From IMG/VR virus record IMGVR_UViG_3300020202_000104, positions 1 through 46,921 of that record: a stretch of DNA of 46,921 nucleotides; one strand, written 5' to 3'. Positions 1,814-44,950 of the stretch are shown here, piece by piece (the stretch's first letter is position 1; each line of letters starts with the position of its first letter). The DNA is from a virus. The translations under genes were made by a program, and so were the position numbers. The notes under the pieces are model-generated. The model had not been told where the DNA came from and did no database searches. It saw only the letters and a program-made list of their open reading frames with translations.

Positions 1814-2084
1814 GCCCTGGACCTGTCCGGAGTGGATGCGCAGGTATGCCCCCTGCTTCACGATGATCGAGGATCCGACCGTCGCCGAGATCGAACGGCA
1901 CATGAACATGCCGGACAAGCTGGAGACGGCGGTCGCCGTCAAGGTGGTGACCGTCGCCGCTCAGGTCGCACTGCTCAAGCGCCTCATGCTCGACGGCCTG
2001 CTGCTGATTGAGAACCCCGAGGCGCCGCCGAAGCCGAAGGCCAAGCGGGTCAAGCCGGCGAAGAAGAAGCGCCGCCGGCGCTAG
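1806..2084 (+). CDS. last gene of the rightward operon, basic-tailed hypothetical
   Basis: ATG 1806 was chosen because an AAGGA motif lies about eight bases upstream; another ATG at 1797 is adjacent to that motif. The 92-residue protein has an N-terminal CPEWMRRYAPC segment, a predicted helical middle (VVTVAAQVALLKRLMLDGLLLIE) and a Lys/Arg-rich tail ending KKKRRRR. It may bind nucleic acid. Its TAG (2082-2084) shares the palindrome CTAG with the stop of the giant late gene on the other strand, so the two operons meet with no spacer. Confidence 0.65.
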   Translation: MPEPWTCPEWMRRYAPCFTMIEDPTVAEIERHMNMPDKLETAVAVKVVTVAAQVALLKRLMLDGLLLIENPEAPPKPKAKRVKPAKKKRRRR

Positions 2085-5000
2085 TCGTCGGCCTTCGCCA
2101 CCTCGGGGAAGCTCTGATTGATGCCGTCGAGGAACTGCCGCGCCAGCTTGCCGACCTCTTCGCGCGACATGCCCGCGCGCTTCGCCTTGGCCACGCGCTG
2201 GCTGGCGCGATCGAGGGCGCGCGCCCGGCCGAGCACCGTGGCGTTGGCCGCGGCGAACTGCTGCCGCGCCGGGCCTTCGAGCCGCTCGAGCGCCGCCTGC
2301 AGCTGGTTGGCCGCCGACGTCGCGCGGTCGAAGACCATGAGCGGGTCGACACCGTTGGCGTAGTCGCGCATGGCCTTGGCCAGCGCCTCGCGCTCCGTGC
2401 CGCTGCGCGCCTGCCAGTAGCTGCGCGACATCTCCCCGATCTGCTGCGCCGGCTTGCCCTGCGGGCGGCCCTCGCGCTTCTCCTCGGCGAGGAAGCGCTG
2501 GACGTCCGCCTGGTCGGAGCCGGCCCCCTCGCGGACGATGCCGACCAGCGACTGGCCCAGGCGCTTGGCCGCGCCCGGCCGGTCCTCGCGCGGCAGGTCC
2601 GACGCCTGCATAGCCAGGGAGCCAGCGATGCCGAGGTGCCCGCGGATGAGGTGATCGACCACCCGGGCGTCGGCGCCGGTGATCCACTGCCCCACCTGGC
2701 CCAGGCCGCTGGCGTTCTTGGTGCCCTTGCGCTGCTCGACCGGGAGCTCCCGCTCGTAGTGCGGGACGATGTCGCGGTTGGTGAAGGTGCTGCGGTTGAG
2801 GGCGATCTCGACCTCGGTCTTGAGTGGGCCGACCAGCGCCGCGTCGTCGACCGGCAGCAGCGCGCGCGCCAGACTGCCGGCGTGGCCCTCGAACGCCTGA
2901 GCCGTGGCCTCCGAGGCGCTCTTGCCGTCGCGGACCATCAGCACCGTGGCGTCCACCGCGCGCTCGGCGCTGGCCGCGGCGACGCCGTAGGTGAACGGCT
3001 TGGGGATCGAGAGCCAGATGCCGGCCGCCACCTTGATGTTCCAGAAGAAGTCGCGCCGCCACGCCGGCAGGTTGCGGTACTCCTCCTCCTCGTCCTTGCC
3101 GCCCATCGCCGCCAGCAGGTAGCACGCCAGCGACGGCGCGAGGGCGTAGGCGCCCCAGCGCGCCGCAGTGCGCCCCGGCGCCCGGCCGACCGCCCGCGCC
3201 TCGGCCGCGAGGCCCTGGATGCTGGCGTTGAGGAAGGGCACGAACTGGTTGATGACGCGGATGGCGTTCCCGGCCACGGCGAAGTCGATCAGCTGGCGCG
3301 AGCGCAGCGCGGCGATCAGGCGCGCATTGTACTCGTCGAGCCCCTTGCCCCGGGCCTCGCGGTACGCCGCGTTGAACTCGTCGACCCGTCCGCGGAGCTC
3401 GCTGCCACGGATCCACCGGCCGTACGCGCCGCCGGCCTTCGCCAGGCTGGTGATGACCACGCTGCGGTCCTGCGCGAGCTCCTTGGTGCGCTTGGCGAGC
3501 TCGCGGTGCCAGTCCTTCGGGCCGCTCAGGTAGTGCCCGGCGAACGCGCCGCCGGCCATCATGGCGAGCGCGCGGTCCTGGTCGGTCTGCCCGCTCAGGC
3601 CCGGCAGCTGCTGGCGCAGACGGCGCGCCGCGCCGGCGAGGCCACCATCCCGCACCTGCGACACGATCAGGCGCGAGATGGAGTCGCGGATTCGGTTGCG
3701 GATCGCAAAGGGCGGGGTGTTGACGATCAGGTTGCGCAGCACCCGGCCGGGGATGGTCAGCGCGTTGAGGAACGGGCCCAGCTTGGTCACCTGGCCCCAA
3801 CCCTTGAGCGCCTTGAGGACGTGCTCCTCGAACAGCCAGTGCTCGGCCTGGCCGTCGCGGAAGACGGCGATGGCGTCCTTGGTGCCCTCGCGCACCTTCT
3901 GCCCGATGCCGGCGAGGAGCGGCTGCTCGCCGCTGTGCATGCCGCGGCGCACCTCGAGCAGGTCGACGAACGAGCGCAGCGCCTCGTTCCGGTCGGCCTC
4001 ATAGAGGACCTTGGCCGTCTGGTCGAGCAGGTTGGCGAAGGGGTTTTCCAGGAAGCGGGTCGATCCCTTGAATGCCTTGACCGGGTCCTTGGGCGAGCCG
4101 ATCCGGCGGCCGGTCGAACGCAGCCCGTCGAGGCCCTCCTCGGCGGCGCGGTGCATCGCCACATAGTACTCGTTCTTGGCCTTGATCGCCTCGTAGTGAT
4201 CGGGCGCGAGCCGGCCCTTCTCCACCGCGTAGCGCAGCACGGCGTCCGCCCAGGCGCGGTAGCGCTTGGCCCCCTCCTCCATGCGCGCGTGGCGCACCGG
4301 ATCCGACGCGATCGCCGCGAGGGCCTCCTGCGCCTGCTCGGTGTCGGAGAACACCCCGCCGCCGGTGCCGGCCAGCCGGCCCTTGATCGCCTCGGCCGCC
4401 CGGCGCATGCGCGCCGAGCCGCGCGCGAGGATCATCATGCGCGCGGTGTAGCGCTTCCGCGCCGTCTCGCGCAGCCGCTCGACGTCCTTGGCCAGGTCCT
4501 CGCCTAGGCCCTGCTGCGCCTGGTCGACGCGCTCGAGCACGGCCACCAGGTCCTTGGCCAGGGCGTCGCCGCGCTTGGCCAGCGCCTCGCGGGCGGTGGA
4601 GATCCGATCGCCCACCGCCTTGCGGCTGCCCTCGGCGAGCTCGTCGACCCGAGCCAGGTCCTTGTCGCCCTTGGCGATGGTGCCCTCGGCGCGCTCCTGG
4701 ACGTCCCCGACTGCGTCCACGGCCTTGCCGGTGCGCCGGCTCTGGCGGGCCAGCCGGGCGCGGTTGGCCGCCTCGGCGGCGTCGGCGGCGTTCTGCTCCG
4801 CGGCGTAGGCGGCGGCGATCTCCTGGGCGCGCTTGGCCAGGCTCTCGGCGACCGTGGCGTCCAGCTGCGCGGCGCGCTCGACCACGCGCTGGTTGACCAT
4901 GTAGTGCCCGAGGTCCGCCAGGTCCTTGGCGACCGTGGCCTTGGACCGCGCATCCACCCAGCCGGTCAGCCAGTCGATGCCGCCCTCGACGCCCTCGGCG

Positions 5001-8000
5001 CGCTCGAGGCGCGCGTCGACCATGCCACGGTCGATGATCGCCTGCTGCTTGTCGTAGATGCCGCCCAGGAGGCGGATGAGCACCTCGGGGTCGCGCTCCG
5101 GCGGGAGCTCGGGATCGCCGCCCAGGCGGGCGCGCTCGCCCTTGGCGAAGCGGATGCCCTTGATGACCGGCGCCAGCGCGTCGAGCGTCTCGGCCTTGAG
5201 CCGGTCCCACGCCGTCACCCGGAAGCCGTCGGCCCCGGCCATCAGGTCCTTCACGCCGCGGGAGAACGTCTCCAGCGGCCCCGGGCCGGTGTCGCCCAGG
5301 TCGCGGATGTTGGCCTTGCCGCGCTCCTCGGCCGGAAGCCCGGCCCAGCGGCGCACCTCGTCGCCGAAGTCGCGCAGCTTGGCGCGCACGTCCTCCGGCA
5401 GCAGCGCCTGGACGTGGGCGGTCAGCAGCGGCGCCGCGCGCTCGGTGGCCTCCGGGTTGAACATCCACGCGCGCAGGTACTCGGCCATGCCCTCGGCACG
5501 CCGGTAGTTCTGCGCCTGCGCCTCGGTCATGCCCAGCCGTGGCGAGGAGCCGAACGGCCAGAACTTCACGAGCTCGCCGTCGAACAGCGACGCGCGGCGC
5601 TCCACCACGGGGTTGAGGGCGCCACTCCCATCGGGGAGGTCGGCGCTCTGGAAGTCCGCCAGCAGGCCGTTGGCGTCGTCCGTCCAGTGCGCGAGCTCGT
5701 GCGCCGCCACGTCGAGGTCGCCCGACTGGCGGATGATCAGGCCGCCGGACTTGGGATCGTAGTAGCCGCCGGCTCCGCGCGGGGTCTTGGCGCGACGCAC
5801 CTGTGCGCCCAGCCACTCGCCGGCGTCGCGGATGATGTCCGGCAGCTTGCGGTCGGCGGAGCCGCCCGGGAGCGGCGCCACCGGCAGGCGCCCCAGGGCC
5901 ACCTGGTAGCGGTCGAGCGTGCGCTGGACGGTGGCCTGCACCCCGTCGCCCGGCTCCTCGGGGCGCACAGCGTCACCCTGCCGATCCTTCCCCTCGGAAG
6001 TGGGTGGGGTAGGCTCAGCGGTGCCCGTGCTCTGGGGGAGCCGTCCCGGGGCCTCGCTGCTGGCCGCGCCTGTAGTACGGCCGGCAGGGGCACCCTTCTT
6101 GGTGAACGCGGTGAGCAGCCAGGTCTTGGCCGTTCCGTTCCACTCCAGGCGCACCGCCGCGCGGTAGGTGCCGTCGTCCAGCTGGATGCGGTTCGCGGTG
6201 CGGCGCACCACCGGCAGGCGGCCGACGATCTCCTGCAGGTTCTCGACCACCTCGGGGTGGTGCGCCTCGAGCTTGGCCAGGCCGTAGCCGGTGTCGTCGT
6301 CCTGGCCGGGCTCGCCGTAGACCAGGTCGATGTCGCCGAGCTCGGGATGGTGCAGCGCGGCGATCGCCTCGCCCGAGCGCTGCTTGCGCAGCGCCGCGAC
6401 CGCGCCCTTGGCATCGTGGCGGTGCTGGCGCAGCAGCGGGCCGCCGTCGACCAGCGAGCGCTCGGCCTCGCCGGGGACACGCTCCGGGGACGCCTGGGCG
6501 TCGCCACCGGCGGACGGTTCACGGCCCAGGCGCCGGATGCGCGCGAACGGCACGTCATCCCACGGCGCCGCCGCTTCGCGCTTCGACGGGCCGCCCTGCG
6601 TCTCGGGGGCCGCCTCCTCCTGGATCGCCTCGCGCTCGACGATGTCCGCGCTGGCGTCGCGGTCGCGCCGCGCCTCCTCCAGAATCGCCTGGCCGCGCCG
6701 GCGCAGGAACTCGCCAGCGGCACCGCGCGGCGCCCGGCCCTCGCGCAGCGCCTTGGCGGCGCCCTGGACGGCGCTGGTGCTGCCGCCGGCCTTGGTGAAC
6801 TCCTCGAGCCACGGCGAGGTCCCCAGGCGCTTCCGGTAGCGGAAGGGCATGCCCATGTCGCCGATGGTGCGCTGCGTCGGCCGGATGCCGCCAACCTCGT
6901 CGACCGCGCCGAGGCCGCCCTCGAGCGCGTCGGCGAGCTCCGTCCGGTCCTCGGGGGTCAGCGCGTCGAGCGACCACGACCGCGGCGCTCCCGCGCCAGC
7001 AGCCACTCGATCTCCCGCCGGAGCTCCGGCATCGCCAGCAGGTTGGTCGCCACCTGTCGCCAACGGGTCGGCCGCCGGCGCAGGCGCGCCAACGGCTGGC
7101 CGCTCGCCAGCGCCGGCTGCGGGTGGTGCTCCTTGGTCGGCTGGGCCACGGCTGGGCTCCTGGGGCTGGATGCGGAGGGCCTCGCGCAGGCGCGGGCTGG
7201 TCGGCACCGGCTGGTCGTCGGCGATCGCCTCCATGGCCACGCCGTAGCGGCGCTGCCGCTCGGCCGCCGCCGCCTGGCGCAGGCTCGCCGCCTGCGGCTT
7301 GCCGATCGCGCCGCCGGCGCGCTGCGCCTCGATGGCCTCGAGCGCCTCGCGGTACTCGGCCTCGATCGCCTGGCGCGCCTCCTGGGTGCGGGCGAAGCGC
7401 GCGCGCTCGGCAAGATCGGGCACAGCTTTTGGCGCCAGATTATTACGCGGATTTATATCGTCCTGCCTGGACTCGACTTCCGGAGGCTGGCCGGATTCAT
7501 TTCCGACAGCCTCGGTAATCGGCGGCGCCGGCTCCGGCAGCCCGTCGGTGGCGAGCAGGCCGCGCAGAACCCGCGCCTCCTCGGCGGTCAGCCGCTCGAC
7601 GGCTGCGGCGATCTCCGCCTGGCGGTCCTCGGCAGGCGGCGCGCCGGTGTCGGGACGGCTCAGCGGGTAGGCGCGGCGGAACTCGTCCTGCACCTGCGCC
7701 GCGGCGATCTCCCGCGCTCCCACGTGGCGCGGTCCTGGGCCGGCGGCGGGATCGTCCACCGGCAGCGTCTCCGCCGGCCGCGAGGGATCGACGACCATCT
7801 CGCCCGCCATCTCCGGCGAGCCGAGGCGCGCCGCGGCGGCGCCGGCCGCCTGCTCGAGCTCCGCGCGCTCAGCCCGCGCCTGCTGGACGCGTCCAGCCGC
7901 CACGTTGCCGGCGTCGGTGGCGCCAGCCGCGCCCATGGTCAGCAGCGTCTGCACGGTGGTGTCGCGGGTCAGGGCGTAGAGCGCCTCCGGGGTCAGCGCC

Positions 8001-8806
8001 TCCGGGTCGATGCCGCCCACCTTGCGGTTGATGGCGTGGAGGAGCTCGGTCGGGAGCTCCTCGAGCGCGAGCTCGTGCCCGGTGCGCTTGGCGATCTCCT
8101 TGAGACCATCCCGCAAGCCAGCGCCGAACACCGGCGCCTGTGACTCGAAGCCGCCCAGGCCGACGCGCTGCATGATCGCCGCCAGGAGGCCCTCGATGGC
8201 CGCTGCGCGCGTTGCGTGTCCGGCAACCTCCATCCCCTGCAGGCCGGCGTCCCGTGCCTCGGTGATGCCTTCGTTGCCCTCCATGACCATCGGTGCGGCG
8301 ATCATGCCGGCCGCGCCTGCCGGCGAGGCCAGAGCGGCGGTGATCAGGGAGCGGGTGGCCCCCTGGACGCCGCGCGCCAGCGTGGGCGGGGCGCCCATCT
8401 CGGTGGCGGCGCGCTCGACGCCGGCGGCATAGAGCGCCGCCTCGCGCTTGGTGCGGTCGGCCGCGGCGTCCTCGCCGATGATCCGCTGGCCCAGGGCGGT
8501 CAGATCCGAGCCCGCGAGGGCCACGCCGCCATGGACCGGCGCCACGATGGCGCTGGCCGGCTGCCGGTCGGCGATCGCCTGCACCACCGCCTCCCGGCTG
8601 GGCAACGGGCGCTCGCCAAGGGCGTGCGCGAGCAGCGCTTCATCATCATAGAGCGATGGATGGACGTAGACCGTCGGGTCGGCCTCCGGCGCGTCCGGGA
8701 CCAGGTCGTCGAGCAGACCAGCCGGGCGCACCGGGAGCGCCGGCGGCGCTGCGTCCTCGGCCGCCAAGCGCTCGTCCGGCACCAGGTCATCGAACAGGCC
8801 GGGCAT
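2081..8806 (-). CDS. 2241-residue large polyvalent virion protein (nuclease + zincin + LPD38-like)
   Basis: This is the last and longest gene of the late operon. Residues 3-11 and 30-38 are near copies of GLFDDLVPD, a motif I associate with large phage ejection proteins. Residues about 800-900 (IDLVYGEPGQ, YGLAKLEAHHPEV, NRIQLDDGTYRAAVRLEW, WLLTAF) match the phage BECR-fold (Barnase/EndoU/ColicinE5-RelE-like) nuclease family. HELAHW at 1036-1041 is an HExxH zincin motif. A long Ala/Glu/Arg helical region spans about 1330-1490. Residues about 1750-1990, with KPFTYG near 1930, resemble large polyvalent-protein domain LPD38. Position after three internal-virion-like genes suggests it is packaged and ejected into the host, analogous to T7 gp16 (inference). 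Peptidase and nuclease activity are predicted from motifs only. Confidence 0.8.
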   Translation of the reverse strand: MPGLFDDLVPDERLAAEDAAPPALPVRPAGLLDDLVPDAPEADPTVYVHPSLYDDEALLAHALGERPLPSREAVVQAIADRQPASAIVAPVHGGVALAGSDLTALGQRIIGEDAAADRTKREAALYAAGVERAATEMGAPPTLARGVQGATRSLITAALASPAGAAGMIAAPMVMEGNEGITEARDAGLQGMEVAGHATRAAAIEGLLAAIMQRVGLGGFESQAPVFGAGLRDGLKEIAKRTGHELALEELPTELLHAINRKVGGIDPEALTPEALYALTRDTTVQTLLTMGAAGATDAGNVAAGRVQQARAERAELEQAAGAAAARLGSPEMAGEMVVDPSRPAETLPVDDPAAGPGPRHVGAREIAAAQVQDEFRRAYPLSRPDTGAPPAEDRQAEIAAAVERLTAEEARVLRGLLATDGLPEPAPPITEAVGNESGQPPEVESRQDDINPRNNLAPKAVPDLAERARFARTQEARQAIEAEYREALEAIEAQRAGGAIGKPQAASLRQAAAAERQRRYGVAMEAIADDQPVPTSPRLREALRIQPQEPSRGPADQGAPPAAGAGERPAVGAPAPAADPLATGGDQPAGDAGAPAGDRVAAGAGAPRSWSLDALTPEDRTELADALEGGLGAVDEVGGIRPTQRTIGDMGMPFRYRKRLGTSPWLEEFTKAGGSTSAVQGAAKALREGRAPRGAAGEFLRRRGQAILEEARRDRDASADIVEREAIQEEAAPETQGGPSKREAAAPWDDVPFARIRRLGREPSAGGDAQASPERVPGEAERSLVDGGPLLRQHRHDAKGAVAALRKQRSGEAIAALHHPELGDIDLVYGEPGQDDDTGYGLAKLEAHHPEVVENLQEIVGRLPVVRRTANRIQLDDGTYRAAVRLEWNGTAKTWLLTAFTKKGAPAGRTTGAASSEAPGRLPQSTGTAEPTPPTSEGKDRQGDAVRPEEPGDGVQATVQRTLDRYQVALGRLPVAPLPGGSADRKLPDIIRDAGEWLGAQVRRAKTPRGAGGYYDPKSGGLIIRQSGDLDVAAHELAHWTDDANGLLADFQSADLPDGSGALNPVVERRASLFDGELVKFWPFGSSPRLGMTEAQAQNYRRAEGMAEYLRAWMFNPEATERAAPLLTAHVQALLPEDVRAKLRDFGDEVRRWAGLPAEERGKANIRDLGDTGPGPLETFSRGVKDLMAGADGFRVTAWDRLKAETLDALAPVIKGIRFAKGERARLGGDPELPPERDPEVLIRLLGGIYDKQQAIIDRGMVDARLERAEGVEGGIDWLTGWVDARSKATVAKDLADLGHYMVNQRVVERAAQLDATVAESLAKRAQEIAAAYAAEQNAADAAEAANRARLARQSRRTGKAVDAVGDVQERAEGTIAKGDKDLARVDELAEGSRKAVGDRISTAREALAKRGDALAKDLVAVLERVDQAQQGLGEDLAKDVERLRETARKRYTARMMILARGSARMRRAAEAIKGRLAGTGGGVFSDTEQAQEALAAIASDPVRHARMEEGAKRYRAWADAVLRYAVEKGRLAPDHYEAIKAKNEYYVAMHRAAEEGLDGLRSTGRRIGSPKDPVKAFKGSTRFLENPFANLLDQTAKVLYEADRNEALRSFVDLLEVRRGMHSGEQPLLAGIGQKVREGTKDAIAVFRDGQAEHWLFEEHVLKALKGWGQVTKLGPFLNALTIPGRVLRNLIVNTPPFAIRNRIRDSISRLIVSQVRDGGLAGAARRLRQQLPGLSGQTDQDRALAMMAGGAFAGHYLSGPKDWHRELAKRTKELAQDRSVVITSLAKAGGAYGRWIRGSELRGRVDEFNAAYREARGKGLDEYNARLIAALRSRQLIDFAVAGNAIRVINQFVPFLNASIQGLAAEARAVGRAPGRTAARWGAYALAPSLACYLLAAMGGKDEEEEYRNLPAWRRDFFWNIKVAAGIWLSIPKPFTYGVAAASAERAVDATVLMVRDGKSASEATAQAFEGHAGSLARALLPVDDAALVGPLKTEVEIALNRSTFTNRDIVPHYERELPVEQRKGTKNASGLGQVGQWITGADARVVDHLIRGHLGIAGSLAMQASDLPREDRPGAAKRLGQSLVGIVREGAGSDQADVQRFLAEEKREGRPQGKPAQQIGEMSRSYWQARSGTEREALAKAMRDYANGVDPLMVFDRATSAANQLQAALERLEGPARQQFAAANATVLGRARALDRASQRVAKAKRAGMSREEVGKLARQFLDGINQSFPEVAKADD

Positions 8807-31363: not shown

Positions 31364-32379
31364 CGCGGCACCCGCTGCGCTATCTCGGCGTCCATGTACG
31401 CCTTCACGCCCAGCGCGATGGCGTCGGCGACGATCTCCGACCCGCCGGCGCTGTACTCGTGCTGCAGCCGTCGCTTCGCTGCCTCGCGCGCGTGGTAGAC
31501 GGGGACGGTCTGCGTCGGGTCCGGCTGGCTCTGCATTTCGCGGAAGCGCTGCACCACCACGTCCACGACGGTCGTCAGGTCGCCAGGCTGGGCGTCCTCC
31601 CACTTGAACACCAGGCCCGCCAGCCGATCCCGCGCCTCGCGGATCTCCGACGCCAGCAGCTGCGCCGAGCGCTCGGCCTTCTGCGCTGCCTGCTGTACGT
31701 GCGTGTCGCGGAGGTCGTAGCCCGGGACATATCCCTGGCGAATCGCCTCCTGCAGCAGCCCGGCCTTGTGCTGGCTGGCCTTCTTGAACTCCTCGCGCTC
31801 CCGCTCGATCTCCTTGAAGGTCTTGGCCACGTCCCCCGCCACCTCGTCGATCGGCCGACCCTGGCAGCCGACCAGGCCCTCCAGGGTTTCGCGCGCGATG
31901 CGGGCAAGCTCCAGCGAACGCGCGGCGTCGCTAGCCACCGTCAGTGGTTCGGACGGCATGGTGTCGCTGTAGAGGCGCCGGGCGAGCATGTCGCGCATTG
32001 CCAACGGCAAGCGCGCCATGCGCTGGGCCTCGGCGCGGGCCTCGTCGCGCTCGGCGAGCGCCCTCCTGTTGGCCCTGTCGATCTCGCCGAGGGCGGCGTC
32101 GTGGCACTTGCGCTCCTCCTCGGCCTGCGCGATGAACGTCCGCGCCCGGCGCAGCGCCGTCGACAGCACCACGTCGGGGTCGCTGGGCTGCACTGGGATG
32201 CACATGCGCCACTGCTTCCGGCCGGCGCACAGGTCGCCGACCAGGTCGATGGCGGCGTTGAGCTCGGCCTCGAGCGCCTTGGGGTCGATGGGCTGCGGTG
32301 ACGCATTGGCCTTCCGCGCCTGTTGATCGTACGCCTCCTCATTCGGCGATGGGCGGCCCTGGTTGCGGGTATCGTTCAC
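31360..32379 (-). CDS. large helical hypothetical next to terminase small subunit
   Basis: GTG 32379 overlaps the upstream stop as GTGA and follows a GGAG site; the longer frame is a shadow of the small terminase gene. The 339-residue protein is mostly charged helix (QAEEERKCHDAALGEIDRAN, KTFKEIEREREEFKKASQHK), with a C-terminal part RLQHEYSAGGSEIVADAIALG. It may act in packaging or as an early helper protein. No family is seen. Confidence 0.55.
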   Translation of the reverse strand: MNDTRNQGRPSPNEEAYDQQARKANASPQPIDPKALEAELNAAIDLVGDLCAGRKQWRMCIPVQPSDPDVVLSTALRRARTFIAQAEEERKCHDAALGEIDRANRRALAERDEARAEAQRMARLPLAMRDMLARRLYSDTMPSEPLTVASDAARSLELARIARETLEGLVGCQGRPIDEVAGDVAKTFKEIEREREEFKKASQHKAGLLQEAIRQGYVPGYDLRDTHVQQAAQKAERSAQLLASEIREARDRLAGLVFKWEDAQPGDLTTVVDVVVQRFREMQSQPDPTQTVPVYHAREAAKRRLQHEYSAGGSEIVADAIALGVKAYMDAEIAQRVPR

Positions 32380-33167
32380 GGTTTCTCCGGAGGTTTCGAC
32401 TTGAGCAGGGCCTGGAGCTCGGCCTTCCGGCGCGCGCGCTCCTCGGGCGTCATTTCGGCGACGGGCTTCTCGCCGAGGTGCACGTGGAGGTCGCCGCCCT
32501 TGACCAGGCCCTTGTACTTGCCGAGGAAATCGAGCGCCCACTCCTTGGAGTAGGTCTTCACCTCGAGCCCGTCCTTCGTGCGCTTGACGCCGGCGAAGAT
32601 CCCGACCGCGTCGGGCGGCAACTGGCGCGTGTCGGCGACGCGCACCTTGCCCTCGCCCTCGCCCTTGCACTCGGGGCAATCCGGATTCGGCGCGCGCGTG
32701 CAATCGAAGCCGGGGCCGCCGAGCACCTTGAAGGGCTTGGGCTCGAACTTCTCGCCGCAGATCGCGGCGTGGGCCTTGCGGTCGGCCTCGTGCTCGACGT
32801 GCTGCTCCTGGGCGCCGCGGAACTCGCCATCGGTGCGCTGGTAGTTGTGGTCCTTGCCCCAGCAGTGCCGGCAGTTCACGCGCCGGTACTCGCTCAGGCT
32901 GCGCGCGTCGCCGAACGCGATCTTCGCCACCTCAGCGATGATGCGGTCGGCCGTCACCTGCTCGCGCTCCATGGCGGCGGCGACGGCGGCGGCGCGGCGA
33001 GTGCTCAATTCTTGCGCAACCTCAGCCTTTCTCACGAGCTCGGAGGCTCTGGACTCGGCGGCGCGCTGGGTCCTCGCCTTGAAGCCAGCAGCGCGGTAGG
33101 CGTCGGCCTGGCTCTTGCCGGCGAGGATGCCCTCGACGAAGCGCAGATGCCGGGCGGAGAGGGCCAT
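32376..33167 (-). CDS. terS: terminase small subunit
   Basis: The 263-residue protein starts with a helix-turn-helix domain (SARHLRFVEGILAGKSQADA, YRAAGFKARTQRAAESRASE), the Terminase_2-type DNA-binding start. Residues about 97-175 hold Cys/His pairs (NCRHCWGKDHNYQ, then PDCPECKGEGEGK), a zinc-finger insertion seen in some phage small terminases. The C-terminus is charged. It recognises the packaging site and feeds the large subunit. It is the first gene of the leftward late block. Confidence 0.85.
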   Translation of the reverse strand: MALSARHLRFVEGILAGKSQADAYRAAGFKARTQRAAESRASELVRKAEVAQELSTRRAAAVAAAMEREQVTADRIIAEVAKIAFGDARSLSEYRRVNCRHCWGKDHNYQRTDGEFRGAQEQHVEHEADRKAHAAICGEKFEPKPFKVLGGPGFDCTRAPNPDCPECKGEGEGKVRVADTRQLPPDAVGIFAGVKRTKDGLEVKTYSKEWALDFLGKYKGLVKGGDLHVHLGEKPVAEMTPEERARRKAELQALLKSKPPEKP

Positions 33168-33175
33168 TGGCCCAA

Positions 33176-33204
33176 ACAGAAAGAGTTTCTATTTCAGCTT
33201 CAAC
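33176..33204 (-). promoter_or_regulatory. weak candidate late promoter upstream of terS
   Basis: On the minus strand TTGAAG (33199-33204) and TCTGTT (33176-33181) are separated by 17 bases, in an AT-richer stretch (AAATAGAAACTCTTTCTG) just before terS. The -10 match is poor. It is the natural place for the promoter of the 31 kb late block, perhaps needing an activator. Confidence 0.3.
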
Positions 33205-33249
33205 ATGAGCGGGCGAATTTCCGCACACTCCCCGGGGGTAGCCTCCGGC

Positions 33250-33477
33250 ATGCCCACCGACGTCGACCTGGTCCTCGGGATGCTGCGCGCGAGCAGCGGC
33301 AGCCTGGTGCTCGCGCTCCAGCGCCTCACCGAGCGCGGTGGCCCCGCCCGCTCCATCGAGCACGCCAGCCAGCTGCTCGAGCAGTGGGAGCGGGCGGGGC
33401 TCATCACCCGCAGCCCCGGACGCCTGGCACCCGGGCCGGCGCTGCCCGGAAACGAGCACGCCCCACGCGGTGCGTAG
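33250..33477 (+). CDS. small winged-helix-like protein near the attachment site
   Basis: The 75-residue frame starts at ATG 33250 (an ATG at 33205 is possible). It has helices VLGMLRASSGSLVLALQRLT and ASQLLEQWERAGLITRSPGR, then a Pro/Gly tail, like a small winged helix. It is the only rightward gene between the late block and the integrase. Its place 180 bases from the attachment repeats makes an excisionase or late-gene regulator plausible, but no motif proves this. Confidence 0.4.
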   Translation: MPTDVDLVLGMLRASSGSLVLALQRLTERGGPARSIEHASQLLEQWERAGLITRSPGRLAPGPALPGNEHAPRGA

Positions 33478-33654
33478 GGCGGTCGTGATTGCGGCTCCTC
33501 TGCGTGCCCGAAGGCCGAGGACCAGGGCGAGCGTGAGCTACGCCACCGCCATCTCCTGCATGCAGGGCCGAAGGACCGAGCGCAAAGGCCCGGGGATCGG
33601 CGCGTCCAACCGTCGCTGGACGTCGCGCACCGTAGGCTCCTGGATCCCTTCCGC

Positions 33655-33681
33655 CAGAGTGCAGCCAGAGTGCAGAGTGCA
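33655..33681 (+). repeat. left arm-type integrase repeats (3 x CAGAGTGCA)
   Basis: Three copies of CAGAGTGCA occur at 33655-33663, 33666-33674 and 33673-33681, the last two overlapping by two bases. The shared GAGTGCA core occurs again on the far side of the tRNA half (33918 and 33929). This flanking arrangement is that expected for arm-type integrase sites. Confidence 0.6.
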
Positions 33682-33698
33682 CCAGGAAGCGCCGGCCG

Positions 33699-33790
33699 CT
33701 GCCCATCACTGCCCAATTCGCGGGGGTCGGTTCGTCCTAAGTCCCTTTGTTTCCGTGACTGCTTCCCGCTGCTGCCCACCACTTCCCATG
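33699..33790 (+). repeat. direct repeat pair GCTGCCCA(T/C)CACT(G/T)CCCA
   Basis: The two copies at 33699-33718 and 33771-33790 are near-identical and lie between the arm-type repeats and the tRNA half-site. They could bind an excisionase or a host factor. Confidence 0.4.
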
Positions 33791-33805
33791 CCTGCCTGAT
33801 GGGCG

Positions 33806-33849
33806 GCGGATTTTGAATCCGCTACGTCTGCCAATTCCGTCACTCGGCC
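33806..33849 (-). other. attP core: 5' half of a tRNA-Leu(CAA) gene
   Basis: Read on the minus strand from 33849, the 44 bases give acceptor GGCCGAG, T8 G9, D-arm (stem ACG/CGT), base 26 and the complete anticodon arm (stem GCGGA/TCCGC, loop TTCAAAA, anticodon CAA at 33815-33813). After 33806 no variable arm, T-arm or acceptor 3' strand follows, so it is a half tRNA, not a gene. A compensatory D-stem pair shows it derives from a real tRNA. It starts 13 bases after the integrase stop, in the same direction. Confidence 0.8.
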
Positions 33850-33862
33850 GTTCCGTTGTAAG

Positions 33863-35095
33863 CTACCTGATGGCGACCAGTTGCGACTGCCTTTCTGGTT
33901 GGGATTCGGCGGGCTCGGAGTGCATAGGGAGTGCAGGGTTCGCGGCGGGCGCTGCGGCGACTGCCGGCGCGCCGCGCGCCGCCACGAGCTTGTCGAGCGC
34001 CTCGCGCGTGCGCTCGAGGTTGGTGCGGAAGTAGCGCTCCACCTGGCTGACCGTCTTGTGGCCGGTGATCTCGGCGATGGTCTTCGGGTCGACGCCGGCG
34101 GCGCGTAGCCGGGTGATGCCCAGGCGCTTCAGCGCGTAGGAGCCGCCCCAGCGCGAATCCGGCGCCGTCGGCGGCCGGCGGTCGCGGTGGCGGATCTCTC
34201 CGGGCTTCGGCGGCTTCTCCGGCAGCAGGCGCTGCGGCTGCAGCTTCCAGCGGTAGAACGTGGTGAACGGCGTGGCCTTGCCCCGCTTGTCGAGCCACGG
34301 CTCCTTGGTGGTCGGGCGCACGAAGATCGGCGCGTCCGGCGCCAGGCCCTTCACCAGCTTGGCGAAGCGCGTGGTGTGCTCCGGCGTCAGGGCGTGCACC
34401 AGCGGGTTGGCCCGGCGCTTCACCCTCAGCGTCATCGTGCCCGCCGGGTTGAAGTCGCGGGCGATTAGGCGCGCAGCGGTGATCGAGCGCCAGCCGTACG
34501 TCGCCAGGCACTCGCTCAGGAGCGCGACGTTCTCGCCGAAGGCGCGGGCGCGCGCGTGCACGCCGGCCTCGACCTCGTCCGGCATCAGTTCCACCGGGTT
34601 CTCCCGCGATGGTGGTGGGCGCATGGTGATGAACGACCGGCGGTCGAACGGCTGGTTATACTTCTCGGACGCCCACAGGTAGACGCTGCGCAGGTAGGAG
34701 AGCGGGCGCGCCGTCCCCCTCCCGCGACGCAGCGCCACCCAGGCGGTGACGCCGGCGGTGTTGACGTGGCCGGTGGTCGGCCAATTGAGCTCGTCCTCGC
34801 CGGTGATGCGCAGGATCGTCCGCTTGTACTCGTCGACCGACGCCTGGGTGATGCGACGGTCGGCCAGGCGCGAGGCGGCCCAGGCGTCGACCACCTCCGC
34901 CCAGGGCAGCGCTACGCCGGGGAGCGGGCCGTTCTTCCGGCGGCGCTTGCGCGGCGGGTGCTGCTTCTCGATCGCCTCGAGCGCGCTGGTCGCCTGCGCC
35001 TTCGAGGCGTACGGCCCCTGCGCCGGCACGGTGCCGTCGTGCAGGCGCCAGCGGATGAACCAGCGCTTGGGGCCGCGGGGTTCGAGCCAGGCCAT
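33863..35095 (-). CDS. int: tyrosine-type site-specific integrase
   Basis: The 410-residue protein has an N-terminal arm-binding region (PRGPKRWFIRWRLHDGTVPA), a SAM-like core-binding region (about residues 65-150, DAWAASRLADRRITQASVDE) and a C-terminal catalytic domain. Visible catalytic residues are Arg203 (TYGWRSITA), His346 (ITGHKTV) and Tyr355 (VERYFRT). The usual HxLR box reads YALK (320-323), so the second His and Arg are not seen. A Pro/Ala-rich tail follows. Its stop lies 13 bases before the tRNA-Leu half. It integrates and, with a partner, excises the phage genome. Confidence 0.88.
   Translation of the reverse strand: MAWLEPRGPKRWFIRWRLHDGTVPAQGPYASKAQATSALEAIEKQHPPRKRRRKNGPLPGVALPWAEVVDAWAASRLADRRITQASVDEYKRTILRITGEDELNWPTTGHVNTAGVTAWVALRRGRGTARPLSYLRSVYLWASEKYNQPFDRRSFITMRPPPSRENPVELMPDEVEAGVHARARAFGENVALLSECLATYGWRSITAARLIARDFNPAGTMTLRVKRRANPLVHALTPEHTTRFAKLVKGLAPDAPIFVRPTTKEPWLDKRGKATPFTTFYRWKLQPQRLLPEKPPKPGEIRHRDRRPPTAPDSRWGGSYALKRLGITRLRAAGVDPKTIAEITGHKTVSQVERYFRTNLERTREALDKLVAARGAPAVAAAPAANPALPMHSEPAESQPERQSQLVAIR
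33916..33935 (+). repeat. right arm-type repeats (2 x GAGTGCA)
   Basis: GAGTGCA is found at 33918-33924 and 33929-33935, eleven bases apart, inside the 3' end of the integrase gene. With the three left copies (33655-33681) they flank the tRNA half-site in the same orientation. Confidence 0.5.
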
Positions 35096-35098
35096 CGG

Positions 35099-35437
35099 CT
35101 ACTTCCAGGCGATCACGACGCCCTCGGTGATCGTCTCGTCGATGGTCCGCACCGGACCGCGGTCGGTGGCGGTGCCGACCACGCGCATGATCACGGCGTC
35201 GCCGCCCATCCGTCGCGCCTTCTGGCGCAGCTTGTCGGTGACGTAGCCGACATCGTCCGGCTCCGCCTGTATCCGGGTGAGGCCGATCTCTACGTAGGGC
35301 CGGCTGGGCTTCTCGGTGAGCACCTCGATGGGGGCGCTGTCAGGCTTTGCCTGACGTTCGATGAAGACGGCGTCGCGCTTCCCGCAGCCGAGGGTTGCGA
35401 AGGAAAGCACTGCCAGGGCGATGGTTAGAAACCGCAT
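35099..35437 (-). CDS. lipoprotein next to integrase (candidate exclusion or moron protein)
   Basis: ATG 35437 was chosen since the product then begins MRFLTIALAVLSFATLGC, a lipoprotein signal with Cys18 and a slightly non-standard lipobox (ATLGC). The 112-residue protein has a compact domain with KLRQKARRMGGDAVI, a pattern shared with small bacterial envelope lipoproteins that have a G-x-D-A-V-I strand. The gene ends three bases before integrase and is expected to be in the same transcript, so it would be made in lysogens. A role in changing the cell surface or blocking superinfection is an inference. Confidence 0.6.
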   Translation of the reverse strand: MRFLTIALAVLSFATLGCGKRDAVFIERQAKPDSAPIEVLTEKPSRPYVEIGLTRIQAEPDDVGYVTDKLRQKARRMGGDAVIMRVVGTATDRGPVRTIDETITEGVVIAWK

Positions 35438-35573
35438 GGGGTCTTTTCTTGTTGAAGGTTGTGGGTTTTGTGTTGACTGGCCAGACCTCGGATACCTGTG
35501 CCTGTCGCTAGTCTCCACGATCTCACAGAACGCATTGCCCGGGTCGAGCGCGACCACGGCCGGTACCTCTCCG

Positions 35574-36065
35574 TCATCGCGCACCTCCGCTTGAAGGCGG
35601 CCCTACGGGACCAGGAGATTTCCTCGCTTCGAGCGCGGCTATGCGCTCTTGAAGCTGATGCATCACCGCCTGGCGCTGCCGGTCATCCTGCATGAGCTTG
35701 GCGATCTCGTCGCGCAGCTGCTGATTTTCTAATTCTTTCCGCGCCAGAGCGCGCTCAAGGCGCGCCGTCTCGGATTCGCCCGATGAGGTTACGACGCCGG
35801 CGGCGCCTTCATGCTCCGCGTCCTCGTCTGCCTCGACCCCCTCCGGCTTCCACCAACGGGGCGGCTTGCCCGTGCCGGACATCAGCCATCCGACGCTGCA
35901 ATGCAGTTCCTCGGCGATCCGCCGGAAGTGGCGCGAGCGCTTCACCTCGCCGATGAGGATGCGCTGGAGGTTCTGCGGCGACATGCCGACGCGACGCGCG
36001 AGCTCGGCCTGGGAGATGATCCCCAGCGCTTCTATACCAGCGCGAATCCTGTCCCCCGTGGCCAC
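35574..36065 (-). CDS. CI-like repressor with coiled-coil end
   Basis: GTG 36065 is the only start in frame. The 163-residue protein has an XRE-type helix-turn-helix domain at residues 1-70 (SQAELARRVGMSPQNLQRIL, HCSVGWLMSG) and, in place of the usual S24/LexA-like protease domain, an acidic linker and a leucine-zipper-like coiled coil (LERALARKELENQQLRDEIA, HQLQERIAALEA). It thus lacks RecA-dependent self-cleavage, and induction must work another way. It faces the Cro-like gene across a 74-base operator. Confidence 0.8.
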   Translation of the reverse strand: MATGDRIRAGIEALGIISQAELARRVGMSPQNLQRILIGEVKRSRHFRRIAEELHCSVGWLMSGTGKPPRWWKPEGVEADEDAEHEGAAGVVTSSGESETARLERALARKELENQQLRDEIAKLMQDDRQRQAVMHQLQERIAALEARKSPGPVGPPSSGGAR

Positions 36066-36078
36066 AACTGGTTACGTG

Positions 36079-36140
36079 TAGCCATTGCATAGCCAAAGTT
36101 CCATTTGATTTACTGAGTAGGTTTGGCTATGTTCTGGCTA
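36079..36140. promoter_or_regulatory. divergent operator with four TAGCCA half-sites and early promoter
   Basis: Half-sites TAGCCA at 36079 and 36090 and TGGCTA at 36124 and 36135 are 11 bases (one helical turn) apart within each pair and mirror each other. The inner pair extends to a perfect 10-base inverted repeat (CATAGCCAAA 36088-36097, TTTGGCTATG 36122-36131). Rightward boxes TTGATT (36105-36110) and TATGTT (36128-36133) have 17-base spacing, so transcription should begin at or near the ATG at 36140. This is a compact lysis-lysogeny switch. Confidence 0.75.
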
Positions 36141-36355
36141 TGGACCACCCCATCGACCCCAAGACGGCGCGCGAGCGCAAGGGCCTGAGCCGCGAGCAGG
36201 TCGCGGTCAACGCCAGCATCGCCTACCACACGGTGTGCCGGTGCGAGCAGTCGGGCAAGTTCCCGGCCCGCCCGCTCTGCCGGCGTCGCTACCTCTCCGC
36301 CCTGGGGCTTACAGAGGCGGACATCACGCCCAAGCCGGTGCGGGGTGCCCGGTGA
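36140..36355 (+). CDS. Cro-like regulator
   Basis: The 71-residue protein has an XRE-type helix-turn-helix (KTARERKGLSREQVAVNASI, YHTVCRCEQSGKFP). The ATG overlaps the last operator half-site and there is no ribosome-binding site before it, consistent with a leaderless message from the promoter at 36105-36133. It would oppose the repressor encoded on the other strand. Confidence 0.75.
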   Translation: MDHPIDPKTARERKGLSREQVAVNASIAYHTVCRCEQSGKFPARPLCRRRYLSALGLTEADITPKPVRGAR

Positions 36356-36570
36356 ACGTCCGCCCCTCGATCGCCGCCCGCGCCCTGCGCGTCAGCCGCC
36401 GCACGATCTACACCTGGACCGCGACCGGCCACATCCCCCGCGACTGCGTCGAGTTCATCGGCGGTCGCGCGCGCTACTCGCTCACGCGGTTGGCGGCGCA
36501 TGGCTTCGATCTCGACCAGCGGGTCGTCGCCGAGTTCACCGGCGCGCAGCCGGCCGGGAGCGCGGCATGA
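36352..36570 (+). CDS. CII-type helix-turn-helix protein
   Basis: GTG 36352 overlaps the previous stop as GTGA. The 72-residue protein contains a helix-turn-helix near its start (PSIAARALRVSRRTIYTWTA, then GHIPRDCVEFIGGRARYSLT), a pattern shared with MerR/excisionase-like small DNA binders. Place after the Cro-like gene suits a CII-like activator or excisionase; the sequence alone cannot choose. Confidence 0.6.
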   Translation: MNVRPSIAARALRVSRRTIYTWTATGHIPRDCVEFIGGRARYSLTRLAAHGFDLDQRVVAEFTGAQPAGSAA

Positions 36571-36857
36571 GGCCCGCCCTGGATGAGATGACGATCCGGA
36601 TCACGGCGGCGCGCCCGCTGCCGGTGACCACTGCGGCGGGCGTGCGCGCGTACCAGCGCCGTGCCACCGCGCAGACGGATCGCCTGCCGGTCGCCGTGCC
36701 GCGCAGGCGTGGCGCCAACGTCATCGACGGAACGCGGTTCCTCGTCGCCCTGGGCGAGAAGCTCGACGCGCAGCGCGATCCCGTCGTCGGCTGGCTGGTG
36801 CGCGGCGCACTCGTCGTCTCTGCGCTCGCTGTCGCCGTGTCCTGGTTGATTCCCTGA
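36567..36857 (+). CDS. small membrane-anchored early protein
   Basis: ATG 36567 overlaps the previous stop as ATGA. The 96-residue protein has a basic, Thr/Ala-rich N-terminal half (MTIRITAARPLPVTTAAGVR) and one C-terminal membrane span (about residues 77-94, GALVVSALAVAVSWL). It is early and coupled to regulatory genes, so a role in host-takeover or exclusion is possible. No family was recognised. Confidence 0.5.
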   Translation: MRPALDEMTIRITAARPLPVTTAAGVRAYQRRATAQTDRLPVAVPRRRGANVIDGTRFLVALGEKLDAQRDPVVGWLVRGALVVSALAVAVSWLIP

Positions 36858-36865
36858 AACGAACG

Positions 36866-36894
36866 AACCCCGCGGCGCGCAAACGCCCGGGGTT
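36866..36894 (+). terminator. hairpin after the early regulator genes
   Basis: AACCCCG (36866-36872) pairs with CGGGGTT (36888-36894) around a GC-rich loop with further pairing (GGCG/CGCC). No T-run follows. It lies between the regulator trio and the recombination genes and probably works as an attenuator or antitermination target. Confidence 0.5.
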
Positions 36895-36922
36895 CATGAC
36901 CGAAAGCCCTCTGGAGGCTCCG

Positions 36923-37240
36923 ATGGACAAGAACCTACCCAAGAACGCGGGAGCGGCAACGAATGCCGGGGAAATCTCGCACACTCCGGCGCCGTGGTTC
37001 TTCGACCGCGATTCCGGCCGCATTCTCGACGGCGCTGGGTGCGTGGTTGCGACGCTCCGCGTACGCGCCCTGCCGGTCGGCCGCCATCCGATGGATGCAG
37101 CTGACGGCCAGGTGCTCGCTCCCGCGCCCAAGCTCCTGGCGGCGCTGCGCGCCTGCCTGTCGGTCCTGCCCTACGGCAACGAGTCCATCGACCTCATGGC
37201 GTTTGCCGCGATCGCCCAGGCCGAAGGGCGCGCGCCATGA
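36923..37240 (+). CDS. conserved small phage protein (HTPAPW type)
   Basis: ATG 36923 has a GGAGG site six bases upstream and was preferred over 36896. The 105-residue protein has HTPAPWFFDRDSGRILDGAG at its start and ALAPAPKLLAALRACL-like helices later (DGQVLAPAPKLLAALRACLS). Related proteins are common in early regions of many phages; their function is not known. Confidence 0.7.
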   Translation: MDKNLPKNAGAATNAGEISHTPAPWFFDRDSGRILDGAGCVVATLRVRALPVGRHPMDAADGQVLAPAPKLLAALRACLSVLPYGNESIDLMAFAAIAQAEGRAP

Positions 37241-44078: not shown

Positions 44079-44950
44079 TGGCTCGTTCTGGCTTCTTCCT
44101 GCAGTTCGATGTGGTCGACAAGCACACCGACGCCGACGACGCGGCGCTGGTGACGTGGCTGCGCTTGGCGGTGATCAGCGCCCGCGCCCTCAACGGCGGC
44201 CGGTTCGTCGCCGCCAAGACCTGGAACCCGACCGGCTGGGCTCGGGTCGCTGGCGTCATCCGCAAGGAGGTGGACGGCACCGTGGCCGCCGGCCTGGCCC
44301 GCTGGGAGGGCGAGGACCTGGTGCTCGAGCACTACGACCACCAGGGGGAGGAAACATGGCGCCGCCAGTCCGAGCGTGGCCGGATCGGGGCGGAGATGAC
44401 GAACCGCCAGAGGCGGACGCCTCTCCCGGACGCCACTCCCGTAGATAAAGCGCGCTCGCCAGAGGCGGACGCCTCTCCCGGACGCCAGAGGCGCGAGCCT
44501 GATGCGTCGCCAGGGGCGAGCGCGCACAGCACTGCATTGCAGAGCACTGGAGAGAATCCTACGCCGTCGCCGCCGGTGGATCCCGCACGCGCACCCGCGA
44601 AGACGGCGTCGAGCGGCGGCGCGACCAGGGTTCAAGCCGTCGAATCCCAGGCGATCCTGGCGGCGCTGGACGCCGGGGACCTGCTGGCGCTGGTCGGGGC
44701 ATTCCGGGCCGATCCCAGCGACCGGGACGGCTGGCTGCGAGAGACGGACGGCTGGACGCTGCGGATGGTCGCGCACGTCCTGGCGTGGCGCCGGCGGCTC
44801 AGGAACGCGATCCGGCAGCCATCGGGGTTCCGACAGGCCCGGGAGCATTGGGGCAGCCAGAGCGCCGACGATCGGGCGGCGATCTGCCAGCAGAACCTCA
44901 CCGAGCTTAGGATCCCCATGCCCAAGGCGTTCCAGGCGGGGTCAGCATGA
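44078..44950 (+). CDS. replication initiator, O-like, with internal origin
   Basis: ATG 44078 overlaps the methyltransferase stop by one base. The 290-residue protein has an N-terminal region GFFLQFDVVDKHTDADDAAL and a helical winged-helix-like part (AKTWNPTGWARVAGVIRKEV), then a Pro/Ser/Ala linker (about residues 105-185) and a helical C-terminus. The linker DNA holds the iterons (44405-44518), as in lambda O, where the origin lies inside the initiator gene. No helicase or primase is present, so I infer that it recruits host helicase. Confidence 0.65.
   Translation: MARSGFFLQFDVVDKHTDADDAALVTWLRLAVISARALNGGRFVAAKTWNPTGWARVAGVIRKEVDGTVAAGLARWEGEDLVLEHYDHQGEETWRRQSERGRIGAEMTNRQRRTPLPDATPVDKARSPEADASPGRQRREPDASPGASAHSTALQSTGENPTPSPPVDPARAPAKTASSGGATRVQAVESQAILAALDAGDLLALVGAFRADPSDRDGWLRETDGWTLRMVAHVLAWRRRLRNAIRQPSGFRQAREHWGSQSADDRAAICQQNLTELRIPMPKAFQAGSA
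44405..44518 (+). repeat. iterons, probable replication origin
   Basis: CGCCAGAGGCG occurs at 44405, 44457 and 44483, and with one mismatch at 44508 (CGCCAGGGGCG). A degenerate copy sits at 44431, so the unit period is about 26 bases (52 = 2 x 26, then 26 and 25). The first two copies extend to identical 31-base blocks with an inverted repeat AGAGGCG-GA-CGCCTCT (44409-44424 and 44461-44476). This is an iteron pattern inside the replication gene. Confidence 0.7.

Follow-up and report, generated by a model that had tools for sequence, protein, structure and literature searches.

What would transcribe a host tRNA whose 5′ half is supplied by an integrating phage? Integrations that restore the 5′ part of a tRNA form a small minority, and the transcription of the rebuilt tRNA has seldom been addressed. 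The question is raised by a locus in the IMG/VR record IMGVR_UViG_3300020202_000104, whose whole length (positions 1-46,921; classed as linear, with a GC content of about 70% and no end repeats) was analysed and is called the window here. A preliminary description of the window had read 44 bases lying directly after the integrase gene (int), in the same direction and 13 bases past its stop, as the 5′ half of tRNA-Leu(CAA), with acceptor strand, D-arm and anticodon arm, and had proposed that they form the attachment core of the phage and that the rebuilt tRNA may be read from the int transcript. The elements of this locus, in the order in which they are read on the minus strand, are as follows.

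33863..35095, minus strand: tyrosine-type integrase (Int) of 410 aa (phrog_1 integrase, E 4e-17).
33850..33862, minus strand: gap from the int stop to tRNA position 1, exactly 13 nt (from the sequence and the ORF ends).
33806..33849, minus strand: 5′ half of tRNA-Leu(CAA), reaching from position 1 through the anticodon stem; candidate attP core (from the sequence and its identity to genuine tRNAs).
33806..33822, minus strand: anticodon arm GCGGA-TTCAAAA-TCCGC, symmetric (symmetry read from the sequence).
33804..33805, minus strand: two extra bases, CG, that fit most genuine tRNA-Leu(CAA) genes, after which the likeness ends (comparison with real tRNAs).

On the minus strand, the half (33849→33806, GGCCGAGTGACGGAATTGGCAGACGTAGCGGATTCAAAATCCGC) reads GGCCGAG TG ACG GAATTGGCAGA CGT A GCGGA TTCAAAA TCCGC, that is, the 7-nt acceptor 5′ strand, a D-arm whose ACG/CGT stem pairs A10-U25, C11-G24 and G12-C23, and the whole anticodon arm with CAA in its 7-nt loop. 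Searching the whole window with ARAGORN and Rfam revealed no complete tRNA, and the 3′ half is absent from the sequence 3′ of the half, where the CG is followed by neither a T-arm nor a CCA end. A degenerate-pattern search of 84,980 genomes (GTDB representatives) returned 11 sites, all 11 of which ARAGORN recognised as genuine tRNA-Leu(CAA) genes. Because these genes are identical to the half at 37-40 of its 44 positions (36 of 37 in the best cases when the acceptor strand is left out), the likeness is not due to chance. A 35-base pattern derived from the half matched the true site and had no match in 100 shuffled windows when up to 3 mismatches were allowed. These results confirm that the 44-nt stretch is a genuine 5′ half of tRNA-Leu(CAA), and the reported position also proved correct, the int ORF ending at 33863 and the gap covering 33862-33850. 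The search for bacterial tRNA-Leu(CAA) genes with this 5′ half, which had been suggested as a check, thus gave similar genes, but the exact 44-mer occurred in none of the 84,980 genomes. An 11-base near-repeat, CTGCCTGATGG (33792-33802) and CTACCTGATGG (33863-33873), 71 bases apart, also brackets the half and may be a product of chance.

The half sits between int and the gene for the terminase small subunit (terS), and CI-like, Cro-like and excisionase (Xis)-like genes adjoin int, making up a complete lysogeny module. The surrounding features are the following.

35099..35440, minus strand: small lipoprotein-like protein with the lipobox TLGC (translation MRFLTIALAVLSFATLGC).
35574..36065, minus strand: CI-like repressor (HTH_3, E 6e-6; phrog_4 transcriptional repressor, E 3e-12), the first gene of the row that reads toward int and the tRNA half.
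36140..36355, plus strand: Cro-like HTH protein, divergent (HTH_31, E 2e-4, under the Pfam cut-off; divergent position).
36235..36570, plus strand: excisionase/MerR-like HTH_17 protein (HTH_17, E 4e-6; phrog_66 excisionase, E 3e-4), whose true start probably lies further downstream than listed.
32376..33167, minus strand: terS, the first packaging gene past attP (Terminase_2, E 1e-12; phrog_51, E 2e-24).
33168..33803, no strand assigned: largely non-coding DNA that separates the core from terS and contains the second arm pair (from the sequence).
33657..33681, plus strand: three GAGTGCA copies, at 33657, 33668 and 33675, terS-side candidates for arm-type integrase sites (repeat search).
33918..33935, plus strand: two GAGTGCA copies, at 33918 and 33929, candidate arm-type sites inside the C-terminal codons of int (repeat search).

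The lipoprotein-like ORF precedes int at a distance of 3 nt, and its product matched no family among the Pfam and PHROG profiles. TAGCCA/TGGCTA repeats between the divergent CI-like and Cro-like genes (36060-36180) are likely operator half-sites. GAGTGCA occurs 10 times in the record, and five of the copies, all in the same direction, fall inside 279 bases around the core. The pairs on the two sides of the core share an 11-bp step (33657/33668 and 33918/33929), and their centres lie at -154/-143 and +107/+118 from the anticodon loop; with the third copy, the terS side covers 136-154 bp. Arm-type integrase sites are usually placed in this way. The cluster is the strongest local 7-mer cluster of the record, tied with AGAGGCG near 44.4 kb, and its log10 P of -9.6 compares with best values of -5.2 to -9.0 in 12 simulated genomes, one of which came close. 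We therefore regard the GAGTGCA pairs as candidate arm-type sites, to which the integrase would bind. The AGAGGCG cluster (44409-44493) consists of inverted pairs at 44409/44418 and 44461/44470 plus a copy at 44487, and is operator- or iteron-like.

The tRNA half is very probably the attP of a tyrosine integrase that uses the 5′-half type of tRNA site. Considering that an anticodon-loop class of tRNA attachment sites is known (PMC8371274), we place the crossover in the 7-bp anticodon loop, and 33806..33822 may be viewed as two core-type integrase sites that flank a 7-bp overlap (33811-33817). The proposal of a 44-bp core needs amending in this respect: the tRNA half is real, but the likeness to real tRNA-Leu(CAA) spans 46 nt, i.e., the 44 plus CG (33805-33804), and crossover would probably be confined to the loop at 33817-33811. 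In the mechanism that we propose, the phage tyrosine integrase would target the anticodon loop of a host tRNA-Leu(CAA) gene, and crossover within 33811-33817 would join the phage 5′ half to the host 3′ half. The int-bearing prophage end would then consist of int, 13 nt and a complete tRNA-Leu(CAA), int staying whole, while the opposite end would carry the host promoter and an orphan 5′ half, aimed through 33803-33168 at terS. Because the host promoter would stay with the orphan half, the rebuilt tRNA would need a phage promoter. Its most likely source would be a transcript of the repressor–lipoprotein–int row, or of the lipoprotein–int part alone, that runs on into the tRNA, and RNase P would free the tRNA from this transcript. 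A matching host gene would start with GGCCGAGTGACGGAATTGG and finish with CTCGGCC-N-CCA. Taken as a whole, a temperate tailed phage with an attP that recombines in the anticodon loop of tRNA-Leu(CAA), with the transcription source worded only as the likeliest one, is the best explanation of the locus, and we consider it reasonably likely.

No promoter that scored above shuffled sequences was found in the window upstream of the tRNA half, the best score being 1.7 against a shuffle mean of 2.2, under an E. coli-like sigma-70 model that may overlook those of a host with 70% GC. The minus strand of 33000-37000, both from the repressor to the half and from the half to terS, contains no intrinsic-terminator-like sites. 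Given the 13-nt gap and a best promoter score under the shuffle mean, read-through from the int row is the simplest reading for the window, although the 3′ end of int might harbour a promoter that is weak or non-canonical. Provided that the half is attP, the chance that the rebuilt tRNA is transcribed by read-through from the phage row is in our view about even. In archaeal pTN3-like elements the rebuilt tRNA is "expressed from the integrase promoter", a situation seldom met in bacteria (PMC8371274). Since TTG accounts for just 11 of the 554 Leu codons in 12 phage ORFs, a weak supply of tRNA-Leu(CAA) might be enough if the codon use of the host is alike. A more far-reaching version, which we put forward tentatively and hold to be rather unlikely, is a promoter swap at integration, by which the host tRNA-Leu(CAA) would be tied to prophage repressor–lipoprotein–int transcription while the host tRNA promoter, with its orphan half, would point into terS and the large subunit gene terL. 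If this were true, lysogeny maintenance and a host tRNA would be coupled.

The same attP and the same integration could also be combined with a local source of transcription, either a small promoter in the end of int or a promoter read by a host sigma factor outside the E. coli model. This is a real possibility, though short of an even prospect, and the evidence that bears on it includes that from the cyanopodovirus P-SSP7. Integration of P-SSP7 into tRNA-Leu has been shown by PCR, that of the related S-TIP37 has been tested by int and attP deletions, and the attP motifs of both match the first half of a tRNA-Leu gene directly downstream of int (PMC8776855). As in the window, int is followed by a same-strand tRNA-Leu 5′ half that runs into the anticodon arm, without a complete tRNA, and the parallel with P-SSP7 drawn in the preliminary description is thus exact in its geometry, which speaks for the attP reading of the window. 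By contrast, the P-SSP7 class uses tRNA-Leu(UAA) with an int-tRNA gap of 91-105 nt, whereas the window has tRNA-Leu(CAA) and 13 nt; the P-SSP7 match stops at the anticodon loop, whereas the window keeps the whole anticodon arm; and the class consists of autographiviruses, for which lysogeny is not known, whereas the window carries CI/Cro/Xis-like genes. Scanning IMG/VR with the P-SSP7 attP yielded 65 contigs in which the site closely follows an integrase-like ORF of the same strand, at a gap of 91-105 nt. When the upstream stretches were collapsed at 85% identity, 24 remained (IMG/VR loci L139 onward, plus P-SSP7 at L013:5768-5905), and in all 24, which are related sites and not independent cases, a TANNNT -10 box ends 19-21 nt before the tRNA (16 at 19, 7 at 20 and 1 at 21), often accompanied by a -35-like box. 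Based on this conserved box, P-SSP7-type phages appear to have a tRNA promoter of their own, placed between int and attP, a feature unmentioned in PMC8776855, whose text was searched for "promoter", and read-through is therefore not the rule of the class. The P-SSP7-type gaps differ in this from the window, which has no recognised promoter. A local promoter in the window would also find a counterpart in another locus (L072:9213-10650), where a tyrosine integrase gene is separated by 9 nt from a complete tRNA-Leu(CAA) and TATAAT lies over the int stop, 8 nt ahead of the tRNA; the window has a weak TAGCTT that overlaps the int stop and precedes the tRNA half by 10 nt. Against it stand the window score below the shuffle mean and the gap of just 13 nt. 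The idea that the tRNA is read from the int transcript is thus not supported as a general rule, but is tenable for the window itself.

It is improbable that the tRNA half is a relic, Int being inactive or using another site and the fragment having gone out of use. This alternative draws on the integrase itself, in which four members of the catalytic R-K-H-R-H-Y set can be placed, with candidate residues the first R in GWRS (201-204), K in VKRR (225-228), the last H in ITGHK (343-347) and Y in VERYF (352-356), while SYALKR (319-324), i.e., YALK (YxxK), stands at the place of HxxR. However, the integrase of the pelagiphage HTVC011P aligns with Y-A-x-K at the same place, and YALK may therefore be a natural variant of the predicted enzyme. 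Int did not match Pfam, and relatives were found neither in IMG/VR, INPHARED (phages) and PLSDB (plasmids) nor, in genome searches run without a positive control, in 247 genomes of the L003 phylum and 144 of the L007 phylum; judged from its sequence, the window Int is very divergent. A single-sequence AlphaFold model of Int, built with no alignment, was too poor to be used (pLDDT 43) and was set aside, and a sub-threshold Rfam match to M23 in the int 3′ end was taken as chance. The terminase large subunit likewise has no relatives in IMG/VR and only distant ones (about 30-34%) in INPHARED. Elsewhere in the window (2081-8806, minus strand), a 2241-aa protein combines LPD38 and PBECR1 domains, i.e., a large polyvalent protein with a nuclease-like domain.

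The outcome of the host search, which like the atypical active site and the missing integrase relatives weighs against the favoured explanation, is also in keeping with a relic. Apart from the missing exact 44-mer, a search that tolerated as many as 3 mismatches gave no copy of the half in 396 genomes belonging to the phylum of L003, a Bryobacterales match, a 32-mer of the half had no match in IMG/VR, and no prophage junction of the window phage emerged from the genome searches, which included no positive control. The nearest tRNA genes in genomes match the half at 39-40 of 44 positions, and its GG start recalls Bryobacterales tRNA genes, a resemblance that we take as a lead only. On the other hand, the tRNA half is still regular over its full 44 bases, its D and anticodon stems remain paired, and both the repeat pairs beside it and the entire lysogeny module are preserved intact, which argues against a fragment out of use.

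Considering that the record is linear and comes from a virus-contig collection, and that several other IMG/VR matches resemble prophage ends, the fragment might instead be attL or attR, at the end of an integrated prophage, or a point at which the assembly joined phage to host DNA. We rejected this very unlikely reading because the fragment is flanked by phage genes, with int, repressor and Cro to one side and terS and terL to the other; moreover, there is no composition break, and arm-like repeats occur on both sides. It is extremely improbable that the half is a regulatory small RNA resembling a 5′ tRNA half: from its position downstream of int on the same strand, it would be transcribed before integration too, but its folding is no more stable than that of shuffled sequences (z -0.35), it has no Rfam match, and the attP role explains it fully.

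An attP made of a 5′ tRNA half after int is a rare yet known arrangement, of which the window is an unusually tight version. That tRNA targeting usually involves the 3′ part, as had been remarked, agrees with the Islander survey, in which 159 of 3919 islands have 5′ tDNA fragments and 3760 have 3′ fragments (PMC4383910); the 5′-fragment islands, likened to the window by class count only, share with it that the element restores the 5′ part of the tRNA. Archaeal pTN3 carries 41 bp of the 5′ half of tRNA-Leu(CAA), and its int is split (PMC5495485, PMC8371274). The pTN3-like integrases thus resemble the window in isoacceptor, in the half concerned and in a rebuilt tRNA parted from its own promoter, but their attP lies inside int, which is split by integration, whereas the window attP lies past the int stop and leaves int whole. 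In the tRNA-dependent lysogeny of mycobacteriophages, which have a tyrosine integrase, paired arm-type sites and an attB in a tRNA gene as proposed for the window, only about 10 bp are shared with attB and a complete replacement tRNA is carried (PMC10865867); the window shares 44 bp with the tRNA and is without a complete phage tRNA. What is new here is the contrast between the conserved -10 box of the P-SSP7-type gaps and the 13-nt, promoterless-looking gap of the window, that is, between a layout with its own promoter and one with none visible. The window also extends the 5′-half layout to a phage of 70% GC whose lysogeny module is CI/Cro-like.

Related anatomies were seen at other loci, two of them 5′-half cases from IMG/VR. 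In a T7-like phage (L030/L124), int, a tRNA-Leu(CAA) 5′ half and an RNA polymerase gene stand in a row, with a gap of 102, and L117 is a further 5′-half case with a gap of 286. Three loci considered as int followed by a whole tRNA-Leu (L028, L130 and L033) were discarded, as a too loose motif filter had passed upstream ORFs that are not integrase-like, and their tRNAs stand beside other phage tRNAs. At L072, the complete tRNA is followed by GTGCCA repeats and by a second, short GACTCAAAATC core, an arrangement that looks like tRNA-dependent lysogeny. HTVC011P (L015:5561-5800) matches this anatomy outside the Actinobacteria, with a complete tRNA-Leu(UAG) just past int and a second, short copy of the anticodon arm, GTCTTAGGAACT, about 190 bases on. 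The anatomy of these two loci could have arisen from a 5′-half attP by sloppy excision.
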